Below the pieces are notes generated by a model. The model was not told the DNA's origin, ran no database searches, and saw only the letters and a program-made list of their open reading frames with translations. Shown one piece after another: positions 5,620 through 59,041 of a stretch of 64,000 nt of DNA. Every line of letters begins with the position of its first letter. Position 1 is the stretch's first letter. Origin of the DNA: Hymenobacter baengnokdamensis (GTDB lineage Bacteria > Bacteroidota > Bacteroidia > Cytophagales > Hymenobacteraceae); NCBI RefSeq assembly GCF_008728635.1, contig NZ_CP044285.1, positions 1,612,001-1,676,000 of the forward strand, in the 5' to 3' direction. Position numbers and translations under genes: made by a program.

Positions 5620-5622
5620 TTT

Positions 5623-5630
5623 TACCTTTG
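5623..5630 (+). promoter_or_regulatory. TAnnTTTG -7-like box before ABC ATPase
   Basis: TACCTTTG matches the -7 consensus exactly and ends four bases before the ATG at 5635. No -33 TTG is obvious upstream, where the previous gene is still coding. Confidence 0.35.
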
Positions 5631-5634
5631 CTGT

Positions 5635-6375: not shown

Positions 6376-6506
6376 CAGCCTTTAGGGCAAGGCCGCCAGC
6401 ATTGTCTTTCATCTTGTAGGGAAGAAGTAGGTAGGTTGTTTACCTGGTATATTTAAGATATATTAAATAATAAATAAATTTTAAATAATAAAATCCTGAT
6501 TATTAA

Positions 6507-7058: not shown

Positions 7059-7158
7059 GTTAGCAGTTGCTTACGTATACTACACTCTTCTCTCCCCATC
7101 CCACCCACTGACGGCCCGTTGCCGGGCCGCCGATTTTTAGCTTTTTTCCCGATTCGCT

Positions 7159-12800: not shown

Positions 12801-13145
12801 CGCGTTAACAACGCCGACTACGGTTTGTATGGCTACGTGCACAACCCGAACGCTGGGTTTGTATATGATGCGAGCTTCGTGAAACTTCGGGAGGTGGCAC
12901 TGACGTTTGCCTTGCCGAGCGCCCTGCTCAGTAAAATTGCCGTGAAAGGTGTTGATTTCTCTATCGTGGGCCGGAACCTGTGGATTATCCACAAGAATCT
13001 GCCCGACGCCGACCCCGAAGACCTGGCTACCGGTGGTGGCGGACTGACGACCGGAGGCAGCAATGGTCTTGCTGGCCAAGGTTTCCAGTCGGGAGCTTAC
13101 CCGGCTATGCGCACGATAGGAGCCAACATTCGTCTCAGCTTTTAA
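9853..13145 (+). pseudogene. SusC/RagA TonB-dependent receptor, frameshifted
   Basis: A signal peptide (about residues 1-22, ending AWAQ) precedes a carboxypeptidase-regulatory-like domain (GKVTDRSTGQGLPGVTI), the plug (LFVVDGVPI, TALYGSRGAQGVILITTK) and a TonB-dependent barrel. These receptors import glycans or peptides bound by a SusD partner. The first frame ends at a TAA at 12004-12006, while the barrel continues in another frame, ending at 13145 with the usual terminal aromatic (IRLSF). Adding one C to the six-C run at 11990-11995 joins them (NFAPPLDVNSTYTSQ). Without that base the receptor lacks its last third. It may be a sequencing error, a real mutation, or phase variation. Confidence 0.9.
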
Positions 13146-43948: not shown

Positions 43949-44023
43949 GAGTAGTGAAGAAGGCAGGCTTACCAAAATAGGGGTTCTCTATTAACGGTAA
44001 AAAAGACGTGAAGGATGCTTGAA

Positions 44024-45583
44024 TTAGGTAGCCAGCGCCTTTAGCTGGCCAGCGGGTACGGCCTTTATGGTGCCTGAGCTGGGCTTGGCGACGGGTTTTT
44101 TAGGCCAGGTAAAGAAGAAGGTAGCGCCCTTTCCCTCGGCCGACTCGACCCAGATGCGGCCGCCCTGCCGCTCCACAATTTTTTTGACGATGGCCAGCCC
44201 TACGCCCGTACTTTCAAGGGTGTCGCGCTCGACCAGCGTTTGAAAAATGACGAAAATGCGCTCGTGGTATTCCGGCGCAATGCCGGGGCCATCGTCCTGC
44301 ACCGAAAAGCGGTAGAAGCTGTCGTTCAGGTCTTCGCAGCCGATGCGCAGCGTGCCGGTTTCGGGATGGTCGTGGTACTTGATAGCGTTGGAAATCAAGT
44401 TGGTAAAAACTTGTTGCAGCTGCGTGCGGTTGGTTGGCAGCGTAGGCAGAAAGAAGGGCAGCTCCAGGTGCATACCTTCGGGCAGGCCCACCGTGTCGGT
44501 AATTTCGCGGAGCAGCTGCCGCACAAATACGGCCTCGTTGGCTTCGGCCACCCGGCCCACCCGCGCCAGGTCCAGAATGCCCGTAATGAGGTTTTCCATG
44601 CGGTGAACCCGCTGGCGCATCAACCCCAGAAACTCTTGGATGTGGGGCGGCAGGGTGTCTTTGCCCATGTCTTCCTCAATCCAGCGCGAGGCGCTTTCAA
44701 TGCCGCGCAGCGGCGCCTTCAGGTCATGCGATACTACGTAGGCAAACTGGTCCAGCTCCTGGTTGCGGCCCTCGAGCTGGCTGATGTTCTGGTCGATAGT
44801 CCGGGCCATGGTATTGAGCGCCGCCGTCAGTTCGCTCACTTCATCATGTTCATTATCTAGCAGCTGCATCTTGTAGTCGCCATCGGCCAGGTGGCGGGCC
44901 ATCTTTATCATGCTGCGCAGGCGGCGCGAGAGCAGGCGGACCAGGTACACGGCCCAAAGCAGGCCAAATACCAGCGCCAGGCCCGTTATCAGGCCCGACA
45001 GTTGCTGGGCGCGGGCGATGCTGCTGGCCAGGCGCTGGCGCTGCTGCTGGCGGCCGGCGTTCTCCGTGGCGTCGAAGTTGGCCATCTGAAAGCGGATAGC
45101 GTCCATTATCTGCTTGCCCGACATCCCCGCGACCAGGCTGCCGTGGGGCATTTCCATCAGGCCGGTTAGCTGCGCATTGCGGTTGTGCACGGCGCGCTTC
45201 TCGCTTATCATCAGGTGCGTATACTCCGACCACTGCCGAAACAGGTGCTCAGTTGTGTCGAGGCGGGCGCGCTGCTGGGGCTCGTCGGCCAGCTCCTGGC
45301 GCAGGGTGTTGAAGCGGTGCAGCAGGTCGCGCTCGCCCGAGTAATAGGGCTGCAGCATCTGCTCATTGCCCAGCAGCAGGTAGCCCCGAAAGCCGGTTTC
45401 CATGTCGATGATGCTCCGTAGCAGCGTAGTGCCATCGGCAGAAGTGCGCTGCGAGGCTTCCATGCGCTGCGAATTGCGCAATACCTGCTCGGCCAGGCGA
45501 TAGTTGACAATTACCACGGCGGCAAATAAGCCCAGCAGCAGTAAGAAGCCGGCAAACAGTTTGGTGGTAAGGTTACTCTTCAT
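44024..45583 (-). CDS. sensor histidine kinase with CHASE3-like sensor and HAMP
   Basis: 519 residues. Membrane helices at about 8-26 and 196-216 enclose a helical CHASE3-type periplasmic domain (TLLRSIIDMETGFRGYLLLGNEQMLQPY). HAMP follows (about 217-270), then a HisKA box VVSHDLKAPLRGIESASRW with H286 and a HATPase domain (NLISNAIKYHD, DDGPGI, GVGLAIVKKIVE). This domain set matches phytochrome-like kinases that signal to Rcp1-type regulators. It ends the middle position of a three-gene operon; the upstream gene is a CZB domain protein. Confidence 0.93.
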   Translation of the reverse strand: MKSNLTTKLFAGFLLLLGLFAAVVIVNYRLAEQVLRNSQRMEASQRTSADGTTLLRSIIDMETGFRGYLLLGNEQMLQPYYSGERDLLHRFNTLRQELADEPQQRARLDTTEHLFRQWSEYTHLMISEKRAVHNRNAQLTGLMEMPHGSLVAGMSGKQIMDAIRFQMANFDATENAGRQQQRQRLASSIARAQQLSGLITGLALVFGLLWAVYLVRLLSRRLRSMIKMARHLADGDYKMQLLDNEHDEVSELTAALNTMARTIDQNISQLEGRNQELDQFAYVVSHDLKAPLRGIESASRWIEEDMGKDTLPPHIQEFLGLMRQRVHRMENLITGILDLARVGRVAEANEAVFVRQLLREITDTVGLPEGMHLELPFFLPTLPTNRTQLQQVFTNLISNAIKYHDHPETGTLRIGCEDLNDSFYRFSVQDDGPGIAPEYHERIFVIFQTLVERDTLESTGVGLAIVKKIVERQGGRIWVESAEGKGATFFFTWPKKPVAKPSSGTIKAVPAGQLKALAT

Positions 45584-45597
45584 GGCTTTCGGGCCTG

Positions 45598-45972
45598 CTA
45601 TTGGGCCCCGGCAGTACGCAGTTTGGCTTCTATAGTTTGGAGCAGCGTGGTAAGGGCATCGGCCAGCGCCTGCACCTCGCCAAAGCCAGCTAGTGCCTCT
45701 TCTCCCCGATTAGCCAAGCGCAGGTCCATGAGGCGGTTAGCCTGCTTATGGATGAGCCGGTGCTGCCGGTCGAGCTCGCTCATTTCGGGCAGGTGATGGT
45801 AAGCTCCCTCGCGGCGCTCCTTTATCCAAACGCCCAGCCCGCACTGCTCGGGGTCGCGCAAGGGGCCTTCTTCCGTACCATTGCCATGCAGGAAAGAGCG
45901 GAGGCGCGCCTTAAAAGAGAAATGCTTAATTAAAGCGGACTCAAAATCCTGTTTGATAGCTTCGGGCGACAT
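45598..45972 (-). CDS. stand-alone CZB (zinc-binding sensor) domain protein
   Basis: 124 residues, almost all one CZB domain: H17, the C44-G-L-G-V-W49 motif, H71 and H75 are the expected zinc ligands. CZB domains are usually attached to chemoreceptors or diguanylate cyclases, where the zinc-thiolate senses zinc or hypochlorous acid. Here the domain is separate and its stop lies 14 bp before the histidine kinase gene, so it may act as a soluble sensor on that kinase. A TACCTTTG box precedes the start by four bases. Confidence 0.88.
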   Translation of the reverse strand: MSPEAIKQDFESALIKHFSFKARLRSFLHGNGTEEGPLRDPEQCGLGVWIKERREGAYHHLPEMSELDRQHRLIHKQANRLMDLRLANRGEEALAGFGEVQALADALTTLLQTIEAKLRTAGAQ

Positions 45973-45976
45973 GGCG

Positions 45977-45984
45977 CAAAGGTA
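45977..45984 (-). promoter_or_regulatory. TAnnTTTG -7-like box before CZB operon
   Basis: On the minus strand TACCTTTG, an exact match to the -7 consensus, ends four bases before the ATG at 45972. Confidence 0.4.
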
Positions 45985-46075
45985 GGCAGCCGGCCGGGGT
46001 ATTGCCTTAGTACGAAGTAGCTTTGCAAGTGCTCAGCCCGGCTGGGTAACTGCTCTGCCCACCCTCGCATTCTTT

Positions 46076-47188
46076 ATGGAAGATACTTCACTTAAAACCG
46101 TTGCGTTGCACGCCACCCACCAGCAGCTGGGGGCCAAAATTGTTCCGTTTGCCGGCTACGCCATGCCCGTGCGCTATTCCTCCGACCTGGAAGAGCACCA
46201 CACGGTGCGCCGGGCGGTAGGCATTTTCGACGTGTCGCATATGGGCGAGTTTCGGGTGCGCGGCCCGCAGGCGCTCGACCTTATTCAGCGCACTACCTCC
46301 AACGATGCCAGTAAGCTGCAGCCCGGCAAGGCCCAATACTCGTGCCTGCCCAATGCCGCAGGCGGCATCGTGGATGACCTGCTGGTGTACATGATGGGCG
46401 ACGAAGACTATTTCCTGGTAGTCAATGCTTCCAATATTGATAAGGACTGGAGCTGGCTGCAACAGCACAACACGAATGGTGCCGAGCTGGAGAATGTCTC
46501 CGACCAGCTGAGCCTCTTTGCGGTGCAGGGCCCGAAGGCCGCCGAGGCACTGCGCGCCCTAACGGAAGTCGACCTGACGGCCATTCCGTACTACAGCTTT
46601 GTAAAAGGGACGTTTGCCGGCGCCCCCGACGTTATTATATCGGCCACGGGCTATACTGGCGCGGGCGGCTTCGAGCTCTACATTCCCAACGAGTATGCTT
46701 CCAGCGTGTGGGATAAGATAATGGAAGCCGGTAAGCCATTCGGTATCAAGCCCATCGGGCTGGGCGCGCGCGATACGCTGCGCCTCGAAATGGGTTTTTG
46801 CCTCTACGGCAACGACATCGACGACACCACGTCGCCCCTCGAAGCGGGCCTGGGCTGGATTACCAAGTTTACCAAAGACTTTACCAACAGTGAAGCCCTC
46901 AAGGCCCAGAAAGCCGCCGGCGTACAGCGCAAGCTCGTGGGCTTTGTGATGGATGGCCCCGGTGGCCTGCCCCGCAGCCACTACCCGCTGGTAGCGGCCA
47001 GCGGCGAAGCCATTGGGGAAGTTACGAGCGGCGGGCAGTCGCCCAGCCTCAGCAAAGGCATTGGCCTGGGCTACGTCAAAACCGAGCTGGCCGCGCCGGG
47101 TACGCAAATCTTCGTGCAGGTGCGCGGCAAAAACCTGCCTGCCACGGTGCATAAGCTGCCGCTGGTGCCCGGTACGGAGGAGGTATAA
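46076..47188 (+). CDS. gcvT: glycine cleavage system T protein (aminomethyltransferase)
   Basis: 370 residues, the family length. [48 protein letters not shown] and [22 protein letters not shown] are GcvT signatures, including the folate-binding region and the Asp-containing loop. It passes the methylene group from the lipoylated H protein to tetrahydrofolate and releases ammonia. The other glycine cleavage genes are not in the window, as is common in Bacteroidota where gcvT stands alone. Confidence 0.96.
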
Positions 47189-47216
47189 CACTTCAACAAA
47201 TTCACCACCTTCTATT

Positions 47217-47298
47217 ATTGCGCGCAACGCGAAGCAATCGCATCAGAACGAGCCGTACGGGTGTCGTTCCGGTGCGATTGCTTCGCGTTGCGCGCAAT
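47217..47298. repeat. long perfect inverted repeat (REP/MITE-like)
   Basis: Perfect 26 bp arms 47217-47242 and 47273-47298, with a partial inner stem GAACGA/TCGTTC. The arms contain CAACGCGAAGCAATCGCA, similar in pattern to the hairpins at 8248 and 30182. It lies between gcvT and comB, with no T-run. Confidence 0.8.
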
Positions 47299-47335
47299 GG
47301 CGGACGGCTGGATTATCAAACTGCCCTTTGATTGT

Positions 47336-48055
47336 ATGAAACTCGACGTTTGCTTTTCGCCCGACCTGCTGCCGCTCTACGACCTGCGCGGCAAGGTGGC
47401 CGTTATCGTGGATGTGCTGCGGGCTACCAGCACCATCGTGACGGCGCTGGCCCAGGGCGTGACCGAGGTTTACCCGACCGCCACGCTCGATGAGTGCGCG
47501 GCGCTGGGCCGCGAGCAGGGCTGCATTACGGCTGCTGAGCGCGATGGGGTCGCCGCCGCCGGCTTCGATTTGGGCAATTCGCCCTTTGGCTTTCTAGATG
47601 GCAAACTGGCGGTGCAGGGTCGCGCCCTGGCCATCAGCACTACCAACGGCACGCAGGCCCTGCGCCGCTCGCTGGCGGCCCAGGCCATCGTGTGCGGCGC
47701 GTTTCTCAACCTAAGCGCCGTGGCCGACTTTGCCGTAGCGCAGGGGCGCGACGTGCTGGTAGTGTGCGCCGGCTGGAAAGGGCAGTTCTGCCTCGAAGAC
47801 AGCCTCTTCGGCGGCGCGCTAGCCGAGCGCCTGGCTACGTTTGGCTTCGATATTGCCTCGTCTGATGCGGCGCTGGCCGCCCTGCATCTGTGGCAGGACG
47901 CCAGGCCCACCTGGCCCCACTACTTACTGCAATCGGCCGCCGTGCGCCGCCTCAACGCGCTCGAAGCCCACGATGACTTCACGTTTTGCATGAATGTCGA
48001 TACCCACCCCGAGATATTGCCGCTGTGGCGGGGCGATAGGCTGGTGCGGGGGTAG
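47336..48055 (+). CDS. comB: 2-phosphosulfolactate phosphatase (ComB family)
   Basis: 239 residues from ATG 47336; an in-frame start at 47261 lies in the hairpin and is rejected. VAVIVDVLRATSTIVTAL, GFDLGNSPFGF, ALAISTTNGTQAL and VVCAGWKGQFCLEDSLFGGAL are ComB signatures. The family removes phosphate from 2-phosphosulfolactate in sulfolactate/coenzyme M-type pathways; in bacteria lacking coenzyme M the real substrate is uncertain. The last ~145 bp have a diverged second copy at 49842-49990. Confidence 0.9.
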   Translation: MKLDVCFSPDLLPLYDLRGKVAVIVDVLRATSTIVTALAQGVTEVYPTATLDECAALGREQGCITAAERDGVAAAGFDLGNSPFGFLDGKLAVQGRALAISTTNGTQALRRSLAAQAIVCGAFLNLSAVADFAVAQGRDVLVVCAGWKGQFCLEDSLFGGALAERLATFGFDIASSDAALAALHLWQDARPTWPHYLLQSAAVRRLNALEAHDDFTFCMNVDTHPEILPLWRGDRLVRG

Positions 48056-48092
48056 CCGGGCGGCGCCATTAAGCCTGTCCGCGCCGCTCGCA

Positions 48093-49034
48093 TTATTTTG
48101 GGCTACTCAGCACCTCGATACTTACCGTGTCGAAAAAAGTATTGTAGCCATTGTCATAGTCCATATGGAAATAGTGCGGGTATTTGCCCGATATGACGCC
48201 GATGCCGGGCTTGAATTTAAGGTCCACCGCGCCAAAATATACAATCTGAGGCTCTACGTCGAATATTTTGAGTGGAATAGACCAGAACGTGTAAATCTGC
48301 TGCTCCTTACTGCTCAGCACCAGTTTGCATCCGGCTACCTGCCAGGCTACGGATGGCTGGTCGGCGGGCTTGGGAAAGGTGAGCACGAGGCGTTTTTGCA
48401 GCGCCGCGAGGTCGGCTGGCGCAAAGGGCTGGGCCCCGCAGTTGAGGGTAACGTTGTCGGCAGTGCCAGGAAACCAGACGGGCTGCCGGCGCACCAGAAA
48501 ATATTCCGTCAGTACTTGATTGGAGGTAGTATAGTAGCGACCGCCGCGTTTGATAATGGGCTGCCAGCCCAGATGACGCGTCAGCAGGTTTACAACTGGC
48601 AACTGCCGTTTGTAGGCCAGTAGTTTCTCCACGCCATTCTGGAGCACCGTTTCCAAGGACACCCTGGCCCGGCTGTTCAGCGTGTCGATATCTATCGCGA
48701 CCCATGTCACCTGGCCAGTCTGCTCGTCGGGCAGTACGGCCAGGGTTACTAATAGCTTATCGCTGTAATAATAGCCGTTTGTCCTAATGGTTGCAGCATC
48801 ATCGTAATGAGGCAGGAAATAAGTGCTGTCGGCCAGTATATTAACGATGTCCACCTGCTCAGGCTTGCCCAGCCGCGTGCGCTGCGTGCGAACGTAGGTA
48901 ATGCGGTTTTTGGCTGATTCGAGTAGGATGTAGGATTTAGGCATAACCAACTGCTGGCCAAACGCTTCCTTAGCCGGGCCAGCCAAGCTGATGAAGCAAA
49001 ACAAAAGCAGTGCTGCTCTGATAAGTAAATTCAT
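48093..49034 (-). CDS. exported hypothetical protein, cassette partner family (copy 2)
   Basis: 313 residues with a signal peptide (about 1-27, ending EAFGQ). It is a clear paralogue of the protein at 50321-51253: both contain VLTEYFLxRxxPxWxP, DNxTxNCxAxPFxPAD, IYTFWSxPxKIFD and a C-terminal ISGKYxxYF followed by FFDxxSI. No known family or catalytic motif recognised. It lies 27 bp after a degraded HExxH module (49062-49844), as its paralogue follows an HExxH module directly. The pairing suggests that the two products work together, for example as enzyme and inhibitor or chaperone, but this is inference. Confidence 0.8.
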   Translation of the reverse strand: MNLLIRAALLLFCFISLAGPAKEAFGQQLVMPKSYILLESAKNRITYVRTQRTRLGKPEQVDIVNILADSTYFLPHYDDAATIRTNGYYYSDKLLVTLAVLPDEQTGQVTWVAIDIDTLNSRARVSLETVLQNGVEKLLAYKRQLPVVNLLTRHLGWQPIIKRGGRYYTTSNQVLTEYFLVRRQPVWFPGTADNVTLNCGAQPFAPADLAALQKRLVLTFPKPADQPSVAWQVAGCKLVLSSKEQQIYTFWSIPLKIFDVEPQIVYFGAVDLKFKPGIGVISGKYPHYFHMDYDNGYNTFFDTVSIEVLSSPK

Positions 49035-49061
49035 AATAAAAGACGAGCTAAAAAATTATAC

Positions 49062-49844
49062 CTACGGACATGCTTGGCTGCCCTGCGCCTTAATGATAAG
49101 GCCATTGCTGGGATTTGGGTAAGATGTGTTGTGCTGCTCTGCCTGCGTTTCTCTATCGATTAAGTCTTTGCGGGTAGGCGAAAAGCTTTGGTAGGTAGTG
49201 GTTCCCTGCAGGCCGCCCCAAAACAGGTCTTCTGCCAATTGATGGTCTAATAGAATGCCCTGGCTGGCAGCGTAGGCTTGCAAGGCATCAGCCATCTGAC
49301 TGATAATAGAACTCATAAGGTCATGCTGCTCCGCCTCTTTTAAATCCATCGACCCTACATACCTGTCAAGCAAGTCGTCTATTGTCGCATTCGAGTCCAG
49401 ATTTTTACCCTGCCCCCACTTTTCCAGGTAGGCGTGGAGAGACTCGTGAATTAACGTTCTGGCTACAGCAAGATTAGTTGCTTGCGAAGTAAAGGTCAGG
49501 TCAACAGTAGTAGTAAATTGAGGCGGGTTACTATTTGCGCTTTCCGTCCGTGCGTTTATGCTTCCTGCTGGATACTTAGGGTCAACAGGAATATTGCCAC
49601 TCGTAATCGTCCAGGTGATAGCTATATTGTTCCCTAACAGGGAAAAAATGCCCGCTATGTCATTGCCTTTCAACCCCTGCAGAGCCGCAAGGATGGGTTG
49701 AATACAAGGTTAAGGCCATCACTTACGATAGTCGTAATTGCCGTCGGTGCACTGCCGCCAGGCAATGGCCCCTGAGGCCCGCTGCCGGGGTCATTAGGGC
49801 TGTTGCCGCCGTTGCCGGGAGTGCCGCCGTAGTCGCCGGGGCCA
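49062..49844 (-). pseudogene. HExxH metallopeptidase-like module, truncated and frameshifted (copy 2)
   Basis: The module starts inside the Gly/Pro/Asn linker (about 49844) and lacks the N-terminal domain and lipoprotein signal found in the gene at 52580. A one-base loss near 49710 breaks the frame: the first part ends at 49670, while the rest restarts in another frame (ATG 49673). Restoring one C gives LNPCIQPILAAL, matching the paralogues. The domain keeps TLIHESLHAYL and, 41 residues after the first zinc His, the conserved QH, then a final QACP. It is a remnant or silent cassette fused at its 5' end to a comB fragment. Confidence 0.85.
49747..49844 (-). repeat. linker homology block, third copy
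   Basis: Encodes the GDYGGTPGNGGNSPNDPG-type linker and differs from the block at 51900-51997 by only three bases over almost 100. It also shares the next residues (LPGGSAP) with that copy but not with the full-length gene. Confidence 0.85.
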
Positions 49845-49990
49845 CCTGACCTCACTACTTGTTACAGTCGGCCGCCGTGCGCGGCCTCAACGCGCTCGAA
49901 GCCCACGACGACTTCACTTTTTGCATGAACGTCGATACCCACCCCGAGATTCTGCCGCTGTGGCGAGGGGATAGTTTGGTGCGGGGGTAA
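49842..49990 (+). pseudogene. comB: displaced 3' fragment of comB
   Basis: The fragment matches the last ~145 bp of comB (47908-48055) with about 17 mismatches, nearly all synonymous: it would encode HYLLQSAAVRGLNALEAH and so on to a TAA at 49988-49990, with only two substitutions (Arg to Gly and Arg to Ser). The first codon of the match, Trp in comB, is TGA here. It abuts the linker of the truncated HExxH module at a shared CCA. The pattern suggests DNA from a related strain's comB, not decay after a local duplication. Confidence 0.9.
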
Positions 49991-50320
49991 GAGAATTATT
50001 TACGCGCTATAGTCTAAGTATGAGCGCTGCTCAGTTAGGATAACTAAACGTGGCTAACTTGCAGAGTTATTAGCTGACGCTAGGAGCAAAATTGTCGCTG
50101 CAAACATACACGCGGATAAAACCCATGCGAACTAGTATAGGTCTTTCATAAGAAATGATATTAATAAAAAATCCTAGTGCATTCATCTTTAACTATTTAC
50201 TACCATAGCTTATTGTTAAAAATAATAACTTTCATGAATAATTATTCAATATTAAAGTATTATAATTTAAATATTATACTTATTGATGATTTTATATAAT
50301 AATGAGCATTATCAACTTGG
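49991..50320. other. A+T-rich gene-free spacer
   Basis: Very rich in A+T from about 50110 on. I see no gene, terminator or repeat; it lies downstream of the cassette partner gene (minus strand) and of the comB fragment (plus strand). Confidence 0.5.
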
Positions 50321-51253
50321 TTATATTTTTTGTATAGAGATTAAATCAAAAAATATATTATGCATGTCGTTGCTATCAAGCCCGAAATATTGAGAGTATT
50401 TCCCGCTTATTAGGCCAATCTCAGGTTGGAATTTTAGTTCTCCTGCTCCAAAAGAAGCAATATTTGCATCAAAAATTTTAGGTGGCAGTGACCAAAAAGT
50501 ATAAATGTTGTTCTCTACTTTTTGCAGCAATAACTTTGTCGTAAGCTCTCCACGAAGCCGCGGTACTTCCTGCCCTTTCAGTATCGAATCTGTTATGCGC
50601 ATTGATTCAGCGGCGTAATCGGCAGGTGTAAAGGGGTGAGCTAAGCAGTTAATTGTTGCATTATCACCGCTAGTTGGATACCAGGTAGGCATATTGCGCA
50701 ATAAGAAATATTCTGTTAGCACTGTCTGGTTCGTAGTGAAATACTGATTACCTTTTTTAATTACAGGGCGCAAATCCAAACGCCTTCGAGACCAGTCAAT
50801 AGCTGGCCCGCCCAGTGCCTCATAATTAAACAGCCGGGTATAACAGTCATCAGCTATGTCGCGCCAGGCAACTTGCCTTGATGCTGGAACAGAGTCGGGG
50901 CTAAATGGTACCCACGTTACATTCCCAGTGCGTAAATCAGGTAAAACCGCAAAGCAAATAAGTAGCTGGTCATGTGTAAATAATCCTGTGTCACCTATGT
51001 CTTTAGTGTCAACCAGCTTATTTCTGACGAAGTCGTTTGGAAGTATAATGTTTATTAGGTCTACGTATTGGGTGGTATTCAGTGCATTTCGTTTCGTTTT
51101 TACAAGAGTTGCTTTTAATTCCTGGGCGGGAATTGTTACGTACACATTAGCAAGGAATAAATGCAGCGGCTGCGTCTTAGACTGCGCAAGGTGTTGCGCG
51201 TTGCTAATGCCAATATTTAGCATCAGTAAATAAAAAATAAATGACTTTTTCAT
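50321..51253 (-). CDS. exported hypothetical protein, cassette partner family (copy 1)
   Basis: 310 residues from the ATG at 51251-51253; its signal peptide is MKKSFIFYLLMLNIGISNAQ. The ATG begins one base after the TAA of the HExxH module (51255-51257), so translation is probably coupled. It shares with the protein at 48093 the VLTEYFLLRNMPTWYPTSGDN region, NCLAHPFTPADYAAES, IYTFWSLPPKIFD, and ISGKYSQYF near the end. Two Cys are conserved or semi-conserved. No family recognised; codons are richer in A+T than the flanking chromosome. Confidence 0.82.
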   Translation of the reverse strand: MKKSFIFYLLMLNIGISNAQHLAQSKTQPLHLFLANVYVTIPAQELKATLVKTKRNALNTTQYVDLINIILPNDFVRNKLVDTKDIGDTGLFTHDQLLICFAVLPDLRTGNVTWVPFSPDSVPASRQVAWRDIADDCYTRLFNYEALGGPAIDWSRRRLDLRPVIKKGNQYFTTNQTVLTEYFLLRNMPTWYPTSGDNATINCLAHPFTPADYAAESMRITDSILKGQEVPRLRGELTTKLLLQKVENNIYTFWSLPPKIFDANIASFGAGELKFQPEIGLISGKYSQYFGLDSNDMHNIFFDLISIQKI

Positions 51254-51254
51254 C

Positions 51255-52127
51255 TTAGTTACATGCTTTACTGCCTTTGGCCGAAGCTTGACTATAAGTC
51301 TCCGCAGCATTTGCGGAAGCTATAACTGACTTTTGGTCATCAGAGAGAGTATTGTAAGCTGCTGTTTCGGTCAGACCCGCCCAAAATAAGTTTTGAGCAT
51401 AATTTAAATCAAGGTTAGGGAATTTAGCTTGTAATGCAAGTGCCATTTGGTTGATAATATTAGCCATTGCGTCATGTTGAGCGGCGATGTCGTTGGGACT
51501 CAGGCTTCCTAAGTATCCATCTACTAATTGAGCCATTGTCGTATTAGCATTCATCCCCTGCGAATATCCCCACTGTATAAGATATGCATGTAATGATTCA
51601 TGAATCAATGTTCTTCCTACTGCAACATCAGTAGCATTGTTTACGAAAGTTGTGTTAAGAGTAGTGCTTAAGTAGTCAGAAGGCATCCCATCCCATTGGC
51701 TAGTTAAAGCATTCACTTGTCTGCCATTCGTGTCATTTGGGATGTAAGCATTTTGTATATTCCAAATGATTGATGACTTCGTGAAGAAATTAAAAAGCCT
51801 ACCTATATCATTTCCATTCGCTCCTTGCAATGAAGACAGAATGGTTTGGGCACAGGGCTTTAAATTAGTGCTTATTATAGTGTTAGTTGAGTTAGGTGCA
51901 CTGCCGCCAGGCAATGGCCCCTGAGGCCCGCTACCAGGGTCATTAGGGCTGTTGCCGCCGTTGCCGGGAGTGCCGCCGTAGTCACCGGGGCCAGTAGGGG
52001 AGCCATCGCCACTGTTATAGCCGCCGCTATCATCGGAGAGCCCACATCCAGCCGAAGAGCCTAAGTACTCGCCCGTGATTGAATTGTAATAGAGCAGGCA
52101 ACTGTTTGCCTTGCCTGGTTGGCTAAG
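51255..52127 (-). pseudogene. orphan HExxH metallopeptidase-like module without N-terminal domain (copy 1)
   Basis: An open frame of 290 codons begins after a TGA (52128-52130) with no ATG or GTG near its start; the first usable codon is a TTG at 51914 after the linker. It aligns with the gene at 52580 from about residue 208 on (NSCLLYYNSITGEYLGSSAGC), through the linker, into its own C-terminal domain: LKPC, TLIHESLHAYL, QH 42 residues later, FWAGLTETAAYNTLS, and a final KACN. It is intact as a module but lacks signal and N-terminal domain, like an orphan C-terminal cassette. It could be read from the TTG as a cytosolic protein. Confidence 0.8.
51931..52076 (-). repeat. 146 bp linker repeat, second copy
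   Basis: Identical base for base to 53271-53416. Sequence diverges on both sides (one mismatch, then a further 14 matching bases on the downstream side). Confidence 0.95.
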
Positions 52128-52175
52128 TCAATGCCTCCCAATTTATGCGCTTAATTAAACTCAGTAGCCCCTTAC

Positions 52176-52571
52176 TTAATGGATATAATCTCGCGGACCA
52201 TCCGATTGTTTCCGACTCCATTGCATATGAAACAGACACACGATTGAGTCTCCCTGCTGAATGCGTAATGTTTGAGTACAAAAAGCATAGGTAAAAGCCT
52301 TTGCCACTACTTCATGCTTTCCCGACCTTACCTCTGTATAAGTACGCCCCTTTTTATCAGTTCGCACGACTACGCCATCAATTACTAATGCGCCTACGCT
52401 CAGCGGTTTTCGGGAGGCGCTGTCCTGTAGAACACCTACTATACAAGGTAAAATACTTTTCTTCCTATGATAGACCATTTTCTCGCACTGGCAGGGCGGG
52501 GTGTGGCGGAAGCCGAAGCTGGAAAGTGCGCAGACAGCGACGGCAAGAGAGGAAAATGGTATAGCTCTCAT
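52176..52571 (-). CDS. small exported protein, carboxypeptidase-regulatory-like
   Basis: 131 residues from the ATG at 52569-52571; an in-frame TTG at 52586 overlaps the preceding stop. A signal peptide (about 1-20) is followed by a CxC (PPCQCEK) and a beta-sandwich pattern (IVGVLQDSASRKPLSVGALVIDGVVVRTDKKGRTYTEV) resembling carboxypeptidase-regulatory-like domains. It follows the full-length HExxH lipoprotein gene by only 8 bp, in the place where the other modules have the 310-residue partner, so it may be the partner of that protein. This role is inference. Confidence 0.65.
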   Translation of the reverse strand: MRAIPFSSLAVAVCALSSFGFRHTPPCQCEKMVYHRKKSILPCIVGVLQDSASRKPLSVGALVIDGVVVRTDKKGRTYTEVRSGKHEVVAKAFTYAFCTQTLRIQQGDSIVCLFHMQWSRKQSDGPRDYIH

Positions 52572-52579
52572 AGTATAAC

Positions 52580-54073
52580 TTAACAACCACTCGGTTTAAG
52601 GCCCAAGGCATTCACACCACCTAATTCCTGATTGATAGCGGCAGCGATACGAGTTTTTTCTTGCTGTGAGAGGGCTTGGTAAGCGGAAGTCCTTCCCAAC
52701 CCATTCCACGCCAAATCCTGGCAATACTGCAAACTAACATTGTAGCCTAATTGGGTACCGTATATATAAAGGACTTGGCCGATATCGTTTTTAAAGCTCG
52801 TTACTATTTGATTGTGCTGCGTGTTATTCTGCCCTGAAGGAGATTGGTAGATGAATGCATCTATCAAGTCTGGGTACTCCATGCCAAATTTAGTCGGGTC
52901 GTTTGAATAATAGGCAACTAGATAGGCGTGTACCGACTCGTGCATCATCGTTGCCATAACACTTAAATCAGTCGCGTTTTGTAACTGTTGAGCATCGAAG
53001 GTCGTTGTAACGGTATTATTTGGATAAGAAGAAATGGTGCTACCGAGCCAGCCAGGCGGGAGAGTGCCAACGTTAAGTTGCCAATTATCAGTTAAACTAT
53101 TGAAATAAGTAATTGGTAGAAAAACGGAGTTAGTGCCATTGATAGATGTTTGACTGCTATATAATAAAATGGCACCCTTTAATGAATTATATGATTGAGT
53201 AAGGCATGGTGTTAAGTTATTGATAACTGCTAAGCTGTTTGTAGGGCTGTTCGGTGGCCCCTGAGGCCCACTACCAGGGTCATTAGGGCTGTTGCCGCCG
53301 TTGCCGGGAGTGCCGCCGTAGTCACCGGGGCCAGTAGGGGAGCCATCGCCACTGTTATAGCCGCCGCTATCATCGGAGAGCCCACATCCAGCCGAAGAGC
53401 CTAAGTACTCGCCCGTAATAGCGTTGTAATAGAACATACAGCTATTTACTTTATTAGTACTTGCTCTTTTCTGCTTATCGGTTGCAGCGGTAGAAGCTTT
53501 AGCAGTACTAACCTCCACCCCTTGAAACCATAGCTTAACCTGGCCCGGCAGTAGGGCTCCATCACTAAACCTGCGTCCATTTAGATAGTGATAACCAGCC
53601 GAATAGAGTAAAAATATTCCAGCTGCGTGAGTGGGAATAGCCAAAGATGGCTGTTGATAGCCGTGGTAGAGGCTGGTAAGTAAGGCCAGCGTATCGACCG
53701 GCATACCAGCTGGCTTCAATAGAAGCTCGGCAATGCTACCATGCAGAGCTTGGTCAGGCGTTCGGGCTATAAATAGGTAGCGAAAGCCTTGCCAGGGATT
53801 ACCAGTGAAGGCTCCGGGGTCATTGGCCATTGGCACAACTAGCAGCGGAGTAGTCTGCGTCCCAATGCTTACTGCTTTTGTCCAAAGCAGACGCGTGCTT
53901 TTAGGGATTGCTGTTGGATAAGTACTTTGGTACCATGCCTGTGCCTCTACGATAGTCAGCCCGAGCGTTGAGGCCGCCGGGTTTGGCTCAATGTGTTGTT
54001 GAGAGCAGGAGGCCAGTATAGCCACCAAAAAACTTGCTAAAATTCTTGCGAGAGAAGTAGAATGTATTCGCAT
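52580..54073 (-). CDS. modular lipoprotein with C-terminal HExxH metallopeptidase-like domain
   Basis: 497 residues. Lipobox LASC with Cys at 23; an N-terminal domain of about 200 residues (with WLxT-type segments and Cys 212 and 230); a Gly/Pro/Asn/Ser linker at about 237-275; and a C-terminal domain with C290, zinc motif HESVH (378-382), a conserved QH at 419-420 as possible third ligand, WNGLGRTSAYQALSQQEK, and a Cys as last residue. C290 and C497 recur in the other modules and could form a disulfide. It should be anchored to a membrane outside the cytoplasm. HExxH implies a zinc peptidase, but no known peptidase family is evident. Confidence 0.8.
   Translation of the reverse strand: MRIHSTSLARILASFLVAILASCSQQHIEPNPAASTLGLTIVEAQAWYQSTYPTAIPKSTRLLWTKAVSIGTQTTPLLVVPMANDPGAFTGNPWQGFRYLFIARTPDQALHGSIAELLLKPAGMPVDTLALLTSLYHGYQQPSLAIPTHAAGIFLLYSAGYHYLNGRRFSDGALLPGQVKLWFQGVEVSTAKASTAATDKQKRASTNKVNSCMFYYNAITGEYLGSSAGCGLSDDSGGYNSGDGSPTGPGDYGGTPGNGGNSPNDPGSGPQGPPNSPTNSLAVINNLTPCLTQSYNSLKGAILLYSSQTSINGTNSVFLPITYFNSLTDNWQLNVGTLPPGWLGSTISSYPNNTVTTTFDAQQLQNATDLSVMATMMHESVHAYLVAYYSNDPTKFGMEYPDLIDAFIYQSPSGQNNTQHNQIVTSFKNDIGQVLYIYGTQLGYNVSLQYCQDLAWNGLGRTSAYQALSQQEKTRIAAAINQELGGVNALGLKPSGC
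53271..53416 (-). repeat. 146 bp linker repeat, first copy (in full-length gene)
   Basis: Identical to 51931-52076. It covers the linker and the end of the N-terminal part, exactly the border between constant and variable halves. Confidence 0.95.
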
Positions 54074-54227
54074 CTGCTTGTGCTTAGAGACTGTAGGCTA
54101 TCCAAGTGCAAACATATAAATAATTGACCAAGAATGTTAAAAATTATACTGGAGTTAGATGCTATTTAGTAAGTGTGTGGAGTCGGGCGGCTGATAGCAG
54201 CTACGCGTGTTATAGCCCGTAATTATA

Positions 54228-55601
54228 TTAGCTGTTCGCTGGCGCAAACTCCGTCACGGCCTCGCCCAGGTCCAGCACTTCCAGGCCCGGCAGCGCCGCC
54301 TGAATGATGCTGGCCCCGGCCGCCGAGCGGTAGCCGCCGGCGCAGTGCACCAGCACAGGCTTATCGGTCGGAATCTCCCTTATGCGCTCGCGCAGCTCGG
54401 GTAGCGGAATGAGCAGGGCGCTGGGGAAGAGCTTGCCGTGCGCCTCGGTGCGGTTGCGAATATCGACAATAGTGAATGTTTCGGGGTGCTGGCGCACAGC
54501 CGCAACCTCGACGGTGGGGCTGGTGGCGGGCTGCACGCTGGGCGCCAGCAGGGCGCCCTTAATATTGCCTTCGTAGCCGATTTTAGCCGTCTTCCGAATC
54601 ACCGCGTCGAGCTGAATCTGGGTATCGGCCAGCAGGTAGAACTTTTCCTGGGGGCCAACGATGGAGCCCAGCCAGGTTTCGAACTTGCCGCCATCCTGCA
54701 GGTTGATGGCGCCGGGCAGGTGGCCGGCGCGAAATTTGGCGGCCGGCCGGGTGTCAATCACTAATACGCCGGGCTGGAGCGCCGCGTGAGGATTGAGGCG
54801 TGGCACGGCCCGCACGCTGTCTTCAAAATTGGGGGCGCCTAGTTTGTTAAGCTGCACGCCGTGGCCGAAATATTTGGGCACAAAGGGCTGGTCGGCCAGC
54901 AGCACCTTCACAAACTCCTGCTCCGACATGGGTTGCAGCGCGTAGTTGGTAGCCAGCTCCTTGCCAATGGTACTGTCGAGGTCGGGGCTGGTGGCTTTGC
55001 CGCAGAGCGAACCGGGGCCGTGGGCCGGGTACACGCGCGTAGTGGGCGGCAGGGCCATCAGCTTCTGGCGGGTGCTGCGGTAGAGCTGGGCCGCCAGGGC
55101 CTCGCGGGCATGGCCGCCCACGGCCTCGTTCTCGCGCAGGTCGGGCCGGCCCACGTCGCCCACAAACAGCGTGTCGCCGGTAAACACGGCGCGGGTTTGG
55201 GCCAGCTCGTCGATAAGCAGCACGCTGATGCTGTCGGGCGAGTGGCCGGGGGTATTAATGGCGTGCAGCTCCACGTTGCCCAGCCGGAGGCGGTCGCCGT
55301 CGTCAAAATTTTTGTGCAGGTAGCGGGCCCCCGTGAGCTTGCTGCAATAAATGGTAGCGTCGGTTTCCTGGGCTATTTCCAGGTGGCTGCTCACGAAGTC
55401 GGCGTGGGGGTGCGTCTCAATCACGGCCACAATCTCGGCCTCGTGCTCGTCGGCAAAATCGTAGTAGGGCTGCGGGTCGCGGCCGGGGTCGATAACGGCA
55501 ACCTGCCGGCCGCAGCGAATGGCGTAGGAGGCGTGGGCCAGTCCTTTATCGTAAAACTGTTGAATTTGCACCGCGGGGGTGCTACTACTGGGAAGCGGCA
55601 T
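54228..55601 (-). CDS. MBL-fold persulfide dioxygenase-like protein with two rhodanese domains
   Basis: 457 residues from the ATG at 55599-55601. The metallo-beta-lactamase domain has ETHPHADF (H64, H66, D68), TPGHSPDS and a GDTLFVGDVGRPDL loop, as in persulfide dioxygenases and CstB-type fusions. Two rhodanese domains follow: the first (about 285-370) has a degenerate active loop with no Cys, the second has CAGGYRS with the catalytic Cys at about 420. The likely role is oxidation of persulfide sulfur to sulfite or thiosulfate. It stands alone next to the island. Confidence 0.9.
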   Translation of the reverse strand: MPLPSSSTPAVQIQQFYDKGLAHASYAIRCGRQVAVIDPGRDPQPYYDFADEHEAEIVAVIETHPHADFVSSHLEIAQETDATIYCSKLTGARYLHKNFDDGDRLRLGNVELHAINTPGHSPDSISVLLIDELAQTRAVFTGDTLFVGDVGRPDLRENEAVGGHAREALAAQLYRSTRQKLMALPPTTRVYPAHGPGSLCGKATSPDLDSTIGKELATNYALQPMSEQEFVKVLLADQPFVPKYFGHGVQLNKLGAPNFEDSVRAVPRLNPHAALQPGVLVIDTRPAAKFRAGHLPGAINLQDGGKFETWLGSIVGPQEKFYLLADTQIQLDAVIRKTAKIGYEGNIKGALLAPSVQPATSPTVEVAAVRQHPETFTIVDIRNRTEAHGKLFPSALLIPLPELRERIREIPTDKPVLVHCAGGYRSAAGASIIQAALPGLEVLDLGEAVTEFAPANS

Positions 55602-55732
55602 GGGGTGGAGTGGCAGCTGTTGAGCTAAAGGCCTGATTATCGGGCTGCCGGGGTAGGTGTCAGGGTCAAATATAAACAAGCCGGCCTAACATTGCTGCGC
55701 TGGCGGCGGCGGTCCGCCGGGCATCGGGCACG

Positions 55733-55763
55733 AAAAAACCCCGGCCGTCGGACCGGGGTTTTG
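55733..55763 (-). terminator. terminator after Spy-like gene
   Basis: G+C-rich stem (arm AAAACCCCGG) with A-run and T-run on the two sides, directly downstream of the minus-strand gene ending at 55786. Confidence 0.8.
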
Positions 55764-55785
55764 CCAAGGAAAAGGACGCGGAAAA

Positions 55786-56211
55786 CTAGCTTTTGGCTTT
55801 GCTGCCGGGCTCGCCTTTCTCTTTATGCTGATGCTCCTGGCGCATGGCTTGCAGCTTGCCAAACTGCTCGGCACTGAGCACGCCTTGCAGCTGGGTCTGG
55901 TACCTGGCCTGGCCGGCTTCCATTGCCTGGTGCATGGCCTGGCGCTGGGCTTCGGCCGGGTACTTTGCCCGGATGGTAGCAGCTTCCTGCGCCTGGCTCA
56001 GCAGTATCTGATGTACTTTGGCTTGCTGGTCGGCACTGAGACTGAGCTTTTTGGTGAGCATAGCCGTGCGATGGTCGGCCCGCTGCTCGGGCGTTTTATG
56101 ACGCTTGCCGTGGTGTGCTGTAACTGCGGTAGTAGCGGTAGCAGGCGTAGTTTGAGCAAAGCTGGCGGTAGCAAAGGCCATAGAAGCCAGCAGAAGCAGG
56201 GACTTTTTCAT
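55786..56211 (-). CDS. small periplasmic Spy/CpxP-like protein
   Basis: 141 residues: signal peptide (MKKSLLLLASMAFATASFAQ), a His-rich stretch (AHHGKRHKTPEQRADHRT), then helices with LSLSADQQAKVHQILLSQAQEAATIRAKY and a C-terminal LSAEQFGKLQAMRQEHQHKEKG. This LTxxQ-like repeat pattern is that of Spy/CpxP-type periplasmic chaperones or metal-responsive proteins, though the family in Bacteroidota (DUF4890-like) is not characterised. A similar gene follows on the same strand. Confidence 0.7.
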   Translation of the reverse strand: MKKSLLLLASMAFATASFAQTTPATATTAVTAHHGKRHKTPEQRADHRTAMLTKKLSLSADQQAKVHQILLSQAQEAATIRAKYPAEAQRQAMHQAMEAGQARYQTQLQGVLSAEQFGKLQAMRQEHQHKEKGEPGSKAKS

Positions 56212-56324
56212 AAGGATAACAAATTTTTTAAGCAGAAAAAAGAAGAGAAAAGCAGGAAGCGCGGCCGCGCTGGCTCCGGATGCCTGGTCGTTTGCAAGGA
56301 GTAAGCCAAAAGAACCACAAGCCC

Positions 56325-56363
56325 AAAAAAGCCCTCTCCACGCCGATGGAAAGGGCTTTTTTG
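56325..56363 (-). terminator. terminator after second small exported gene
   Basis: Stem with arm AAAAAAGCCCT, a bulged inner part, then the complementary arm; downstream of the minus-strand gene ending at 56379. Confidence 0.75.
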
Positions 56364-56378
56364 CCGACCAACAAACTA

Positions 56379-56747
56379 TTACCGGCCTACCTGGCTGGTA
56401 CTGTGCAGCTGCCCGATGCGGGCGGCCTTGTACTGCTGGTAGCGCACATACTGCGCGGGCGTGAGCACTCCGCGAATCAGCTCGTCTGATTTGGCGCGGT
56501 CGAAGGCCATGGCGGTGCGCAGGGCCGCGGGGTCGTCGTGGTGGGCGGTCAGGTCGGCATCCAGGTGCTGGCGGGTCAGCAGCAGCACCTGGCGCAGCCG
56601 GGCGTGCTGCTCGGGCGAGAGGCCCAGCTCCTGCGCTAGGCGTTGGGCCTGGCTGGCCACGGCCGCCTGCACGGCCGGCGTAGGCTGGGCCTGGGTGCTG
56701 GCCACTACCAAGCTAAAGAGAGCGGTAAGAATAAGGTTATTTTTCAT
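56379..56747 (-). CDS. small exported helical protein, Spy-like
   Basis: 122 residues from the ATG at 56745-56747; the longer frame to 57059 would run over the permease start and is rejected. Signal peptide MKNNLILTALFSLVVASTQAQ, then helices with LGLSPEQHARLRQVLLLTRQ and GVLTPAQYVRYQQYKAARI, the same S/T-x-x-Q logic as the neighbour at 55786. The two may share a function or arise by duplication, but the sequence similarity is slight. Confidence 0.7.
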   Translation of the reverse strand: MKNNLILTALFSLVVASTQAQPTPAVQAAVASQAQRLAQELGLSPEQHARLRQVLLLTRQHLDADLTAHHDDPAALRTAMAFDRAKSDELIRGVLTPAQYVRYQQYKAARIGQLHSTSQVGR

Positions 56748-56825
56748 AACAGCTTCAAGAAAAGCAATTCGGTAAAAGTAGGTTCCCCGGCCTTGGGCGG
56801 CGGGCAAAACGGGGGCGCCGCGCCG

Positions 56826-56863
56826 CCAGGCGGGGGCTACCCGGCCGGGTAGCCCCCGCCTGG
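56826..56863. repeat. 38 bp perfect palindrome
   Basis: Two 19 bp arms (CCAGGCGGGGGCTACCCGG) meet with no loop. It is G+C-rich, lies upstream of both the permease and the small exported gene, and lacks a T-run, so it is not a terminator. A further copy of CAGGCGG follows at 56871. Confidence 0.75.
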
Positions 56864-56993
56864 CCAAACCCAGGCGGAGGCTGGTCGCGAAGTTTAGCGT
56901 ATTTTCGGCCCGGCTGATTATCGCTCGGCCCTTCTTAAACGTGAAAAAATAGTTACTATTACCTCCCCCACCCGTTCTTTTACCTCCTTTTGC

Positions 56994-58574
56994 ATGGCTA
57001 GTATTTTTGCCAAAAAACCGCTCGCCCAACTTCTGGGTGAAGCTAACTCGACCGGCCACGGTGCCCTGAAGCGCACGCTGGGAGCCGGTAACCTCGTGGC
57101 CCTGGGCGTGGGTGCTATTATCGGGGCCGGCCTGTTTGTGCGCACCGCCGCCGCCGCCGCGCAGGCCTCGGGGCCGGGCGTGACGTTGGCTTTCGTGCTG
57201 GCGGCCTTCGGCTGCGTGTTTGCGGGTCTCTGCTACGCCGAGTTTGCGGCCATGATTCCCATCGCCGGCTCGGCCTACACCTATGCCTACACCACCATGG
57301 GCGAGTTTGTGGCCTGGATTATCGGCTGGGCGCTGATTATGGAATACGCGCTGGGCGCGGCCACCGTCAGCATTGCCTGGAGCGAATACCTAAACAAGCT
57401 ACTGGAGGTCTTTCATACCAGTATACCGTATAATCTGAGCCATTCGCCCTTCGAGCACGCCGTCATCAACGGCGTGTCGGAGCAAGGCTTTATCAACCTG
57501 CCGGCTCTGCTCATCATTGTGGCCCTGAGTTTGCTGCTGGTGAAAGGCACCCAGGAGTCGGCCCTGTTCAACGCTATTGTGGTGGTGCTGAAGGTGCTCA
57601 TCGTTATCATTTTTATTGCCGTAGGCTGGCAGTTTATCAACCCCGCCAACCACACGCCTTATCTCATTCCGGACCACGCCGTAGTGAAAAATGCGGCTGG
57701 CGAAGTGGTGCGCACCTACGATGGCTTGTTTAAGCACGGCTGGGGCGGCATTATCGGCGGCGCCGGCATTGTATTCTTCGCCTTTATCGGGTTCGACGCC
57801 GTGAGCACGGCCGCGCAAGAGGCACGCAACCCCAAGCGCGATATGCCCATCGGTATTCTAGGCTCGCTAGCCATCTGCACAGTGCTCTACATCCTGTTTG
57901 GGCACGTGCTGACGGGGGTGGCCAACTGGCGCGAGTTTGCCGACCCGGCCCTGGGCGGCGAGGCCAGCGTAGCTTATGCTATCCGGGCGCACATGCCCGG
58001 CTATGGCTGGCTGGCTACGGCCGTCACGCTAGGTATCCTACTAGGCTTCACCTCGGTTATCCTGGTTATGCTGATGGGCCAGAGCCGGGTTTTCTTTTCC
58101 ATGGCCAAGGACGGCCTCATGCCCAAAGCCTTCTCCGAACTGCACCCTCGCTTCAGCACCCCGTATAAATCAAATCTCATGCTGATGGTCTTTGTGGGGC
58201 TGTTTGCAGCCTTCGTGCCGGGCTCGTTGGCCGGCGACCTCACCTCGTTTGGCACGCTGCTCGCCTTCGTGCTCGTGAGCCTTGGCGTATGGATTATGCG
58301 TAAGTCTGACCCCGACCAGCCGCGTCCGTTCCGCTCGCCGCTTTCCACGCCCAGCTTCCCGCTGGTGCCCATCATGGGCGCTATCGTGTGTACGCTGCTG
58401 ATTGTGGGCCTCGACTCGTTTACGCTGCAAGTAGCTTTTGGCTGGATGCTGCTCGGCTTTATAGTGTATTTCCTATATGGTAAGCGCAACTCAATGCTTC
58501 AAAAAGGTATCGTAGTAGTACCTACGGAGATGGACGAGGAAGCTTTTATCAAGCCTGACCCCAACAACCGGTAG
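56994..58574 (+). CDS. amino acid permease (APC family, cationic type)
   Basis: 526 residues with about 13 membrane helices. GAGNLVALGVGAIIGAGLFVRTAAAAA and AGLCYAEFAAMIPIAGSAYTYAYTTMGEFVAWIIGWAL in the first helices are the APC signature; FFAFIGFDAVSTAAQEARNPKRDMPIGI is typical of the cationic amino acid transporter (CAT/YhdG) group. It would import an amino acid across the inner membrane by symport or exchange. The cytosolic tail is acidic. The gene ends before a strong terminator shared with the convergent DUF2945 gene. Confidence 0.95.
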   Translation: MASIFAKKPLAQLLGEANSTGHGALKRTLGAGNLVALGVGAIIGAGLFVRTAAAAAQASGPGVTLAFVLAAFGCVFAGLCYAEFAAMIPIAGSAYTYAYTTMGEFVAWIIGWALIMEYALGAATVSIAWSEYLNKLLEVFHTSIPYNLSHSPFEHAVINGVSEQGFINLPALLIIVALSLLLVKGTQESALFNAIVVVLKVLIVIIFIAVGWQFINPANHTPYLIPDHAVVKNAAGEVVRTYDGLFKHGWGGIIGGAGIVFFAFIGFDAVSTAAQEARNPKRDMPIGILGSLAICTVLYILFGHVLTGVANWREFADPALGGEASVAYAIRAHMPGYGWLATAVTLGILLGFTSVILVMLMGQSRVFFSMAKDGLMPKAFSELHPRFSTPYKSNLMLMVFVGLFAAFVPGSLAGDLTSFGTLLAFVLVSLGVWIMRKSDPDQPRPFRSPLSTPSFPLVPIMGAIVCTLLIVGLDSFTLQVAFGWMLLGFIVYFLYGKRNSMLQKGIVVVPTEMDEEAFIKPDPNNR

Positions 58575-58867: not shown

Positions 58868-59029
58868 ACGTGAAGCGAAGTTAAAATAGTGTCTTTTTAA
58901 CGCTGCCGGCGGTCAGAAGATTCGGACCACGCGGGTTTATTGGGGTAGCGGCACCAGGATGGCCCTGGCGGCCGGCGGGGTTTTTACGTAAGCAAACGGC
59001 TCGTAAAAAAGCATTAGCGCTTATTGCCC

Positions 59030-59037
59030 GACCTTTG
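59030..59037 (+). promoter_or_regulatory. -7-like box before ricin-OmpA gene
   Basis: GACCTTTG ends four bases before the ATG at 59042. Confidence 0.3.
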
Positions 59038-59041
59038 CCGC

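Follow-up and report, generated by a model that had tools for sequence, protein, structure and literature searches.

We analysed a 64,000-nucleotide stretch of the Hymenobacter baengnokdamensis genome (assembly GCF_008728635.1, 4.43 Mb in one contig, NZ_CP044285.1; positions 1,612,001 to 1,676,000), referred to here as the window. Between 48.1 and 54.1 kb, its minus strand carries one full lipoprotein gene, two HExxH modules that lack an N-terminus, and three genes for exported partner proteins. This island is probably a polymorphic toxin locus, in which a lipoprotein-anchored metallopeptidase would act outside the cytoplasm and the exported proteins would confer immunity. At the level of sequence it has the features of such a system: a constant N-domain with variable C-domains, displaced orphan tips, and a downstream gene that co-varies with the C-domain (one partner group, IV240, excepted). 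Polymorphic toxins are already known; what differs here is that the tip is predicted to be a metallopeptidase and the partners are exported.

Layout of the island

The features of the island, with window coordinates, are as follows.

52580..54073, minus strand: full-length lipoprotein, the candidate toxin; 497 residues with a signal peptide and the lipobox ASCSQQ
Residues about 24-239 of that protein, minus strand: N-domain, with relatives found by search
About 53249-53356, minus strand: Gly-rich linker of the full-length gene
52583..53248, minus strand: HExxH C-domain of the full-length gene, with HESVH at 52928-52942 (alignments A1 and A5)
52176..52571, minus strand: small exported partner of the full-length gene, placed in the carboxypeptidase-regulatory-like (CPD-like) group via similarity to other members
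51915..52107, minus strand: copy of the N-domain tail and linker before module 2; 193 bp, 95% identical to 53255-53447
51255..52127, minus strand: orphan module 2 (N-tail, linker and, at 51258-51881, HExxH C-domain), without a signal peptide, open from stop to stop
50321..51253, minus strand: exported partner 2, of a ~310-residue family (III310); ATG at 51253, 1 nt after the module 2 stop
49834..49989, plus strand: displaced 3' end of a ComB-like gene joined to the module-1 linker; 156 bp, corresponding to 47899-48054
49722..49844, minus strand: linker copy of orphan module 1; 123 bp, 90% identical to the module 2 linker
49062..49709, minus strand: HExxH C-domain of orphan module 1, out of frame with its own linker
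48093..49034, minus strand: exported partner 1, of the ~310-residue family, 27 nt after module 1; an AlphaFold2 model was made
47336..48055, plus strand: ComB-like gene bounding the island (Pfam 2-ph_phosp, 225 bits)

An earlier note, made from the letters alone, had described a complete lipoprotein gene followed on the same strand by two HExxH modules without the N-domain, and this is the layout we found. Also as described there, a member of one exported ~310-residue family comes after each orphan module (1 nt and 27 nt downstream), and a different small exported protein begins 8 bp past the stop of the full-length gene, if read from the ATG at 52571 (131 residues; 136 as the listed open reading frame, or ORF). 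The longest ORF of partner 2 extends to 51310. Partners 1 and 2 are 38% identical to each other, and the small partner falls in a different similarity cluster. The idea that both orphans begin within the linker needs refinement: linker copies stand at both, but module 2 starts inside the 193-bp copy, which includes the N-domain tail as well. Likewise, module 1 does contain both a linker and an HExxH domain, but the linker, whose wider extent is 49670-49855, lies in a different reading frame from the domain, so that this copy is broken. HESxHAYL, a later QH, WxGLxxTxxY and a terminal or near-terminal Cys are common to all three modules, as proposed, but the L of the proposed LxPC motif is not in frame in module 1. 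The higher A+T content was also seen, with GC of 0.38-0.55 in 1-kb blocks of the island against 0.638 and 0.584 in the two flanking blocks. Two features were absent from the earlier account: the 156-bp copy of the ComB-like 3' end, and another locus of this genome at which a full-length copy and partners occur again.

The full-length gene and all three partner genes are open. Both orphan toxin modules lack a start with a signal peptide, and one is also frame-broken; their candidate immunity genes are open. None of the island's six proteins matched a curated family model (Pfam, NCBIfam) above cut-off, the small exported partner had no Pfam match of its own, and the full-length protein also had no firm match in the PDB. 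Because the repeats are long and nearly identical, and the layout recurs in other genomes, we take the arrangement to be more than chance.

A swap read against a near relative

The near relative Hymenobacter sp. BRD67 (G191, locus L031) is collinear with the window on both sides of the island. Window 44001-49844 aligns end to end with L031 170-6014 at 91.7% identity, and window 53255-58000 with L031 5936-10671 at 96.0%; the two BRD67 segments overlap solely in the linker. The 3410 bases between them, window 49845-53254, are extra DNA inside the linker, present in this BRD67 stretch only as the repeats and a related C-domain. In 200-bp blocks, identity to BRD67 is 70-95% from about 47.8 to 49.8 kb, compared with 88-99% outside this part.

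The BRD67 N-domain is 93% identical to that of the window and is joined to a C-domain of the module-1 type (87.5%) and its partner (80.5%). The window's own C-domain has its nearest kin, also by tree, in genome G161 (locus L032, 63% identity), where the N-domain is 33% identical to the window's and the next gene is again a partner of the small type (39%). Together, the BRD67 and G161 pairings indicate that C-domain and partner are swapped together and move as a unit. The match between C-domain and partner suggested earlier is thus seen both here, where a BRD67 N-domain carries another pair, and in the wider family, where partner type mostly tracks C-domain type.

Synonymous divergence (dS) between the two strains is 0.107 for the N-domain and 0.104 for comB, against 0.376 for C-domain 1 and 0.582 for partner 1. 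The displaced ComB end is closer to the BRD67 comB end (95.2% over 49844-49989) than to the window's own (88%). Therefore, the present ComB-like 3' end of the window probably came with the imported stretch of partner 1 and module 1, replacing an older end.

It is extremely unlikely that the island is a horizontally acquired region decaying without a present function. Its A+T richness, the frame-broken orphan and the stop in the toxin gene of BRD67 would fit decay, but the full-length gene is open, as are those of the three partners, and the ratio of nonsynonymous to synonymous divergence (dN/dS) between the strains is 0.16-0.28 for the N-domain, C-domain 1, partner 1 and comB.

One N-domain with many C-termini

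A profile of the N-domain (alignment A2) gave 19 matches in 11 of 120 Hymenobacter genomes. We split 17 of these into N- and C-parts, leaving out two fragments from G106. The N-parts of all 17 fall into a single cluster, the C-parts into seven: HExxH (seven proteins), a 'VGHAF...NC' type (three), DUF6973 (two, assigned via Pfam), an unnamed type (two), and three singles, one of which (L042) is cut short by its frame. The C-domains therefore look swappable, as the earlier note had supposed. It had named as contrary evidence a constant pairing of N-domain and C-domain with no partner linkage, and the opposite was found. By eye, the 'VGHAF...NC' type resembles NlpC/papain enzymes. Ten proteins or pieces of the N-domain family were scanned against Pfam at E<=0.1, and no match was obtained outside the two DUF6973 proteins.

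Several of the non-HExxH genes have exported or lipoprotein-like downstream genes of their own. At L034 (8364-10476), a non-HExxH gene of the family is followed by three consecutive exported ORFs of 149-168 residues that are alike by eye, a row that we would call polyimmunity-like. At L037, the next gene was judged by eye to encode a membrane protein.

The second locus of the same genome (L030, G000:C1:800000-815000) spans 4980-8172 and has a full-length gene 54% identical to that of the window, then a CPD-like partner, then a III310 partner 66% identical to window partner 1. This III310 gene stands without a matching C-domain of that type, and looks like an immunity gene left behind.

With the N-domain of the Flavobacterium gene L061 as query, 6 of the 299 genomes searched in that genus gave seven matches. 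One of these proteins (L123) has a JAB-like C-terminus (Prok-JAB, E=0.026, below cut-off) and is followed by a DUF6705 protein (E=5e-34); the C-termini of the other five proteins read are near or distant HExxH domains, and the L125 ORF was not recovered.

The HExxH C-domain family

A search with the C-domain gave 13 proteins, and a search with alignment A1 (16 sequences) gave 46 loci in named Bacteroidota genomes, so that HExxH C-domains occur across this phylum. The 46 loci were found with the pattern [MIL][LMI]HES[VIL]HAY, and the invariance of the motif in alignment A5 is by construction. Alignment A1 was not chosen by that motif; all 16 of its rows share HExxH, a W, WxGL, a Glu and two Cys, and at least 90% have a later His. 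The two invariant Cys suggest a disulphide, and with it an extracytoplasmic C-domain.

SprT-like metallopeptidases (PF10263), such as Spartan, share the HExxHAYL helix and a weak profile match with the C-domain. At E<=0.1, 21 of 38 C-domains matched PF10263. When ten C-domains were scanned singly, nine matched, one of them (L093, 31.0 bits) above the 25.6-bit cut-off; the C-domain of the window's full-length gene had no PF10263 match. Among PDB profiles the best match, to Spartan (E=0.025), was confined to the HExxH helix. SprT proteins are known from inside the cell, whereas the C-domain of the island is exported and has a near-terminal Cys that is invariant in the alignment. From the conserved HExxH, later His and Glu, together with these weak matches, the C-domain is predicted to be a metallopeptidase.

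Exported partners mostly follow the C-domain

For the partners we used 56 C-domain loci, counting the window as three modules. This set drops L052, L053 and L079 (the same loci as L032, L039 and L043) and L050, which the motif filter missed and whose next gene encodes 160 residues with a signal-like start; it keeps the near-duplicates L058/L069 and L074/L075/L077. The first downstream gene was defined as the first ORF of at least 100 residues in a chain whose gaps do not exceed 350 bp, and export was called by a hydropathy rule rather than SignalP. The first downstream ORF is export-like at 53 of 56 loci, compared with 48 of 141 control ORFs (100-350 residues, from the same named loci, possibly including false ORFs).

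The first partners of 54 loci fall into the groups CPD-like (25), II180 (8), III310 (7) and IV240 (7), with seven singles; the split of IV240 from CPD-like is a judgement, since one pair links them. Several partner families are mutually unrelated, and they mostly follow the phylogeny of the C-domain. On a quick tree of the 51 C-domains of at least 170 residues, with support from the Shimodaira-Hasegawa-like approximate likelihood-ratio test (SH-aLRT) only, partner labels change 15 times against a shuffled mean of 24.7, and none of 200 shuffles was as low. III310 forms a single branch (98% SH-aLRT). The CPD-like label changes 6 times (16.7 shuffled, 0/500 as low) and II180 3 times (6.7 shuffled, 0/500); IV240 changes 5 times (5.7 shuffled, 118/500 as low) and so is not clustered. 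Distances between C-domains and between partners, uncorrected for shared species history, correlate within CPD (r=0.54, n=20, 0/5000 permutations as high), II180 (r=0.79, n=7, 86/5000), III310 (r=0.98, n=6, 25/5000) and IV240 (r=0.46, n=6, 169/5000). This linkage leads us to infer that the partner is an inhibitor or immunity protein.

Tandem paralogs of the first partner occur at 9 of 56 loci. We scanned 52 downstream proteins with Pfam (first partners at HExxH loci and elsewhere, and some additional genes, one itself toxin-like) and matched CarboxypepD_reg in seven, CarbopepD_reg_2 in six and eight other families in one protein each. DUF6705 is among the families with one match. At L091, an HExxH gene and its own partner are followed by three exported proteins in tandem (5333-7218) that by eye resemble DUF6705. 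Because DUF6705 was found both among the scanned downstream proteins and after the JAB-like C-terminus of L123, L091 may contain a mixed array of immunity genes.

Bacteroidota commonly have enzymes among their surface lipoproteins, and the locus could instead encode a surface protease that serves nutrition or contact with a matrix, with an exported chaperone or activator and with variation reflecting substrate choice. A coupled exported neighbour could indeed be a foldase or a propeptide-like partner. We consider this unlikely, as one N-domain carries C-termini of seven clusters, including non-HExxH ones, several with their own exported neighbours, and partners are unrelated between several C-domain clades. 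The tandem duplication of partners, and the open partner genes kept by the window's two orphan modules without signal peptides, also argue against it.

An acidic signal on the candidate toxin side

In Capnocytophaga canimorsus, an acidic stretch after the lipid-bearing Cys suffices for surface export of lipoproteins; no highly conserved residues were reported at this place in periplasm-facing lipoproteins, and Bacteroides fragilis and Flavobacterium johnsoniae have similar stretches in their surface lipoproteins (PMC5080379). We counted D and E at positions +2 to +7 in 24 C-domain proteins with a script-recognised lipobox (the Cys is probably miscalled in L066, L068 and L070) and in 18 partner lipoproteins. 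The mean is 1.92 for the former and 0.22 for the latter (Mann-Whitney p=2e-6). At least two acidic residues are present in 16/24 C-domain proteins and 0/18 partners, and at least one in 21/24 and 4/18. This contrast suggests that the toxin is outside and the guard inside. The window's own protein has a single E there (CSQQHIEPN), and for this strain the point is therefore only suggestive.

Surface-type signals, together with the linker and N-tail common to the orphans and the full-length gene, would also suit silent-cassette antigenic variation, in which the orphans are donors copied into one expressed surface lipoprotein to alter its exposed face. However, every cassette here comes with a partner gene, a second C-domain lies nearby at few loci (no systematic count was made), and the catalytic residues are conserved. 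This explanation is very unlikely.

Proposed mechanism and known systems

In the toxin and immunity model, the lipoprotein N-domain would bring the metallopeptidase toxin at its C-terminal end to the outer membrane and probably onto the cell surface. When the cell touches a neighbour, or when shed vesicles reach one, the C-domain would cut a target in the periplasm or envelope of that recipient. The exported protein encoded directly downstream would be the immunity protein, blocking the matching C-domain in the periplasm of the producer and its sister cells. New cassettes of C-domain and immunity gene would enter by recombination, with the N-tail and linker at one end and the ComB-like gene at the other, and each import would displace older cassettes, which stay behind as orphans. 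Protease activity, toxicity, inhibition, surface location, delivery route, target and order of import are all what we infer from the sequences.

Several points weigh against this model. Toxicity, partner binding and protease action are predictions. Inspection by eye of the surroundings of the locus revealed no delivery gene, and no systematic search for one was made. The toxin-type gene of BRD67 has an in-frame stop, and several other relatives of the full-length gene are split or truncated; by our intactness rule 31 of 56 toxin ORFs are intact, a count that misses true lipoproteins such as L032 and so gives no rate of decay. Two loci (L063 and L094) have no downstream gene within 350 bp, and the partner at L117 falls below the export cut-off. 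The lone acidic residue of the window's protein, the scattered IV240 labels, the possible false ORFs among the export controls and the uncorrected distance correlations belong here as well.

The closest known system in build is SitA/SitI of myxobacteria, described in PMC5562445 and PMC8546572 as a lipoprotein with a family-specific N-domain, a polymorphic C-terminal toxin and an adjacent cognate immunity gene. The likeness is one of architecture only (lipoprotein, polymorphic C-terminus, adjacent partner gene): the SitA C-termini reported there are nucleases that hit the cytoplasm, and SitA spreads by outer membrane exchange, whereas that of the island is a predicted metallopeptidase with an exported partner. 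Zincin-like HExxH domains are known in polymorphic toxins as Tox-MPTase1-5, distantly related to Wss1-like peptidases; these occur with RHS repeats and have no immunity protein in the table rows of PMC3482391, whereas the island type is found on lipoproteins, with four partner groups and singles. No match named Tox-MPTase appeared in our Pfam scans, in which coverage of all five models is not assured. Imm65 is called the sole lipoprotein among the immunity proteins of that study (PMC3482391).

The same source describes APD1/APD2 of Amoebophilus, MAFB-N of Neisseria and Microscilla-N as lineage-specific constant N-domains with variable C-termini and proposed surface anchoring (PMC3482391), all of which the island shares. 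These occur in other organisms, and the likeness is by description, not by N-domain sequence. For the APD effectors, eukaryotic-host targets and parallel deployment rather than serial displacement are proposed in that text (PMC3482391). Periplasm-acting Lipocone toxins with transmembrane or lipoprotein immunity have multi-fold immunity in the periplasm or membrane, as here, but belong to a different superfamily with proposed lipid-linked targets (PMC12419801). At E<=1, the 497-residue lipoprotein had no Pfam match of the filamentous-haemagglutinin type, as in contact-dependent growth inhibition (CDI) systems, and none to a YD-repeat or Rhs core. A literature search of titles and abstract openings, with most subscription papers out of reach, gave no description of this N-domain or of the pairing of C-domain and partner.

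If the model is true, environmental Bacteroidota would have a class of surface-anchored weapons acting in the envelope. It would provide immunity proteins for an HExxH toxin family, where the table rows for Tox-MPTase1-5 list none (PMC3482391), identify likely immunity proteins in several exported families that match Pfam rarely or not at all, and offer a testable sorting rule, with an acidic signal on the toxin and none on the guard. A broader view, which we put forward tentatively and with some doubt, is that surface-lipoprotein polymorphic toxins could be Bacteroidota-wide: diverse N-domains would carry swappable enzymes (SprT-like, NlpC/papain-like, JAB-like, DUF6973 and others), all extracytoplasmic, whose delivery, through contact or the fusion of vesicles, would need no secretion machine of its own. 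Immunity would come from exported or periplasm-facing lipoproteins, and the acidic signal on the toxin but not the guard would keep the two apart in the producer.

Other features of the window

Upstream of the ComB-like gene, an imperfect palindrome at 47217-47298 matches the genome at 16 places when both strands are counted; one of these lies in the second locus (L030), between its two partner genes. It resembles a REP-type (repetitive extragenic palindromic) element. A TonB-dependent receptor lies over two ORFs (9853-12006 and 12030-13145), the first with the plug match and the second with the barrel match; because it is split in this way, it is possibly frame-broken. Lastly, a single ORF at 59024-61078 has matches to a ricin-type lectin, a beta-propeller (PD40) and OmpA.

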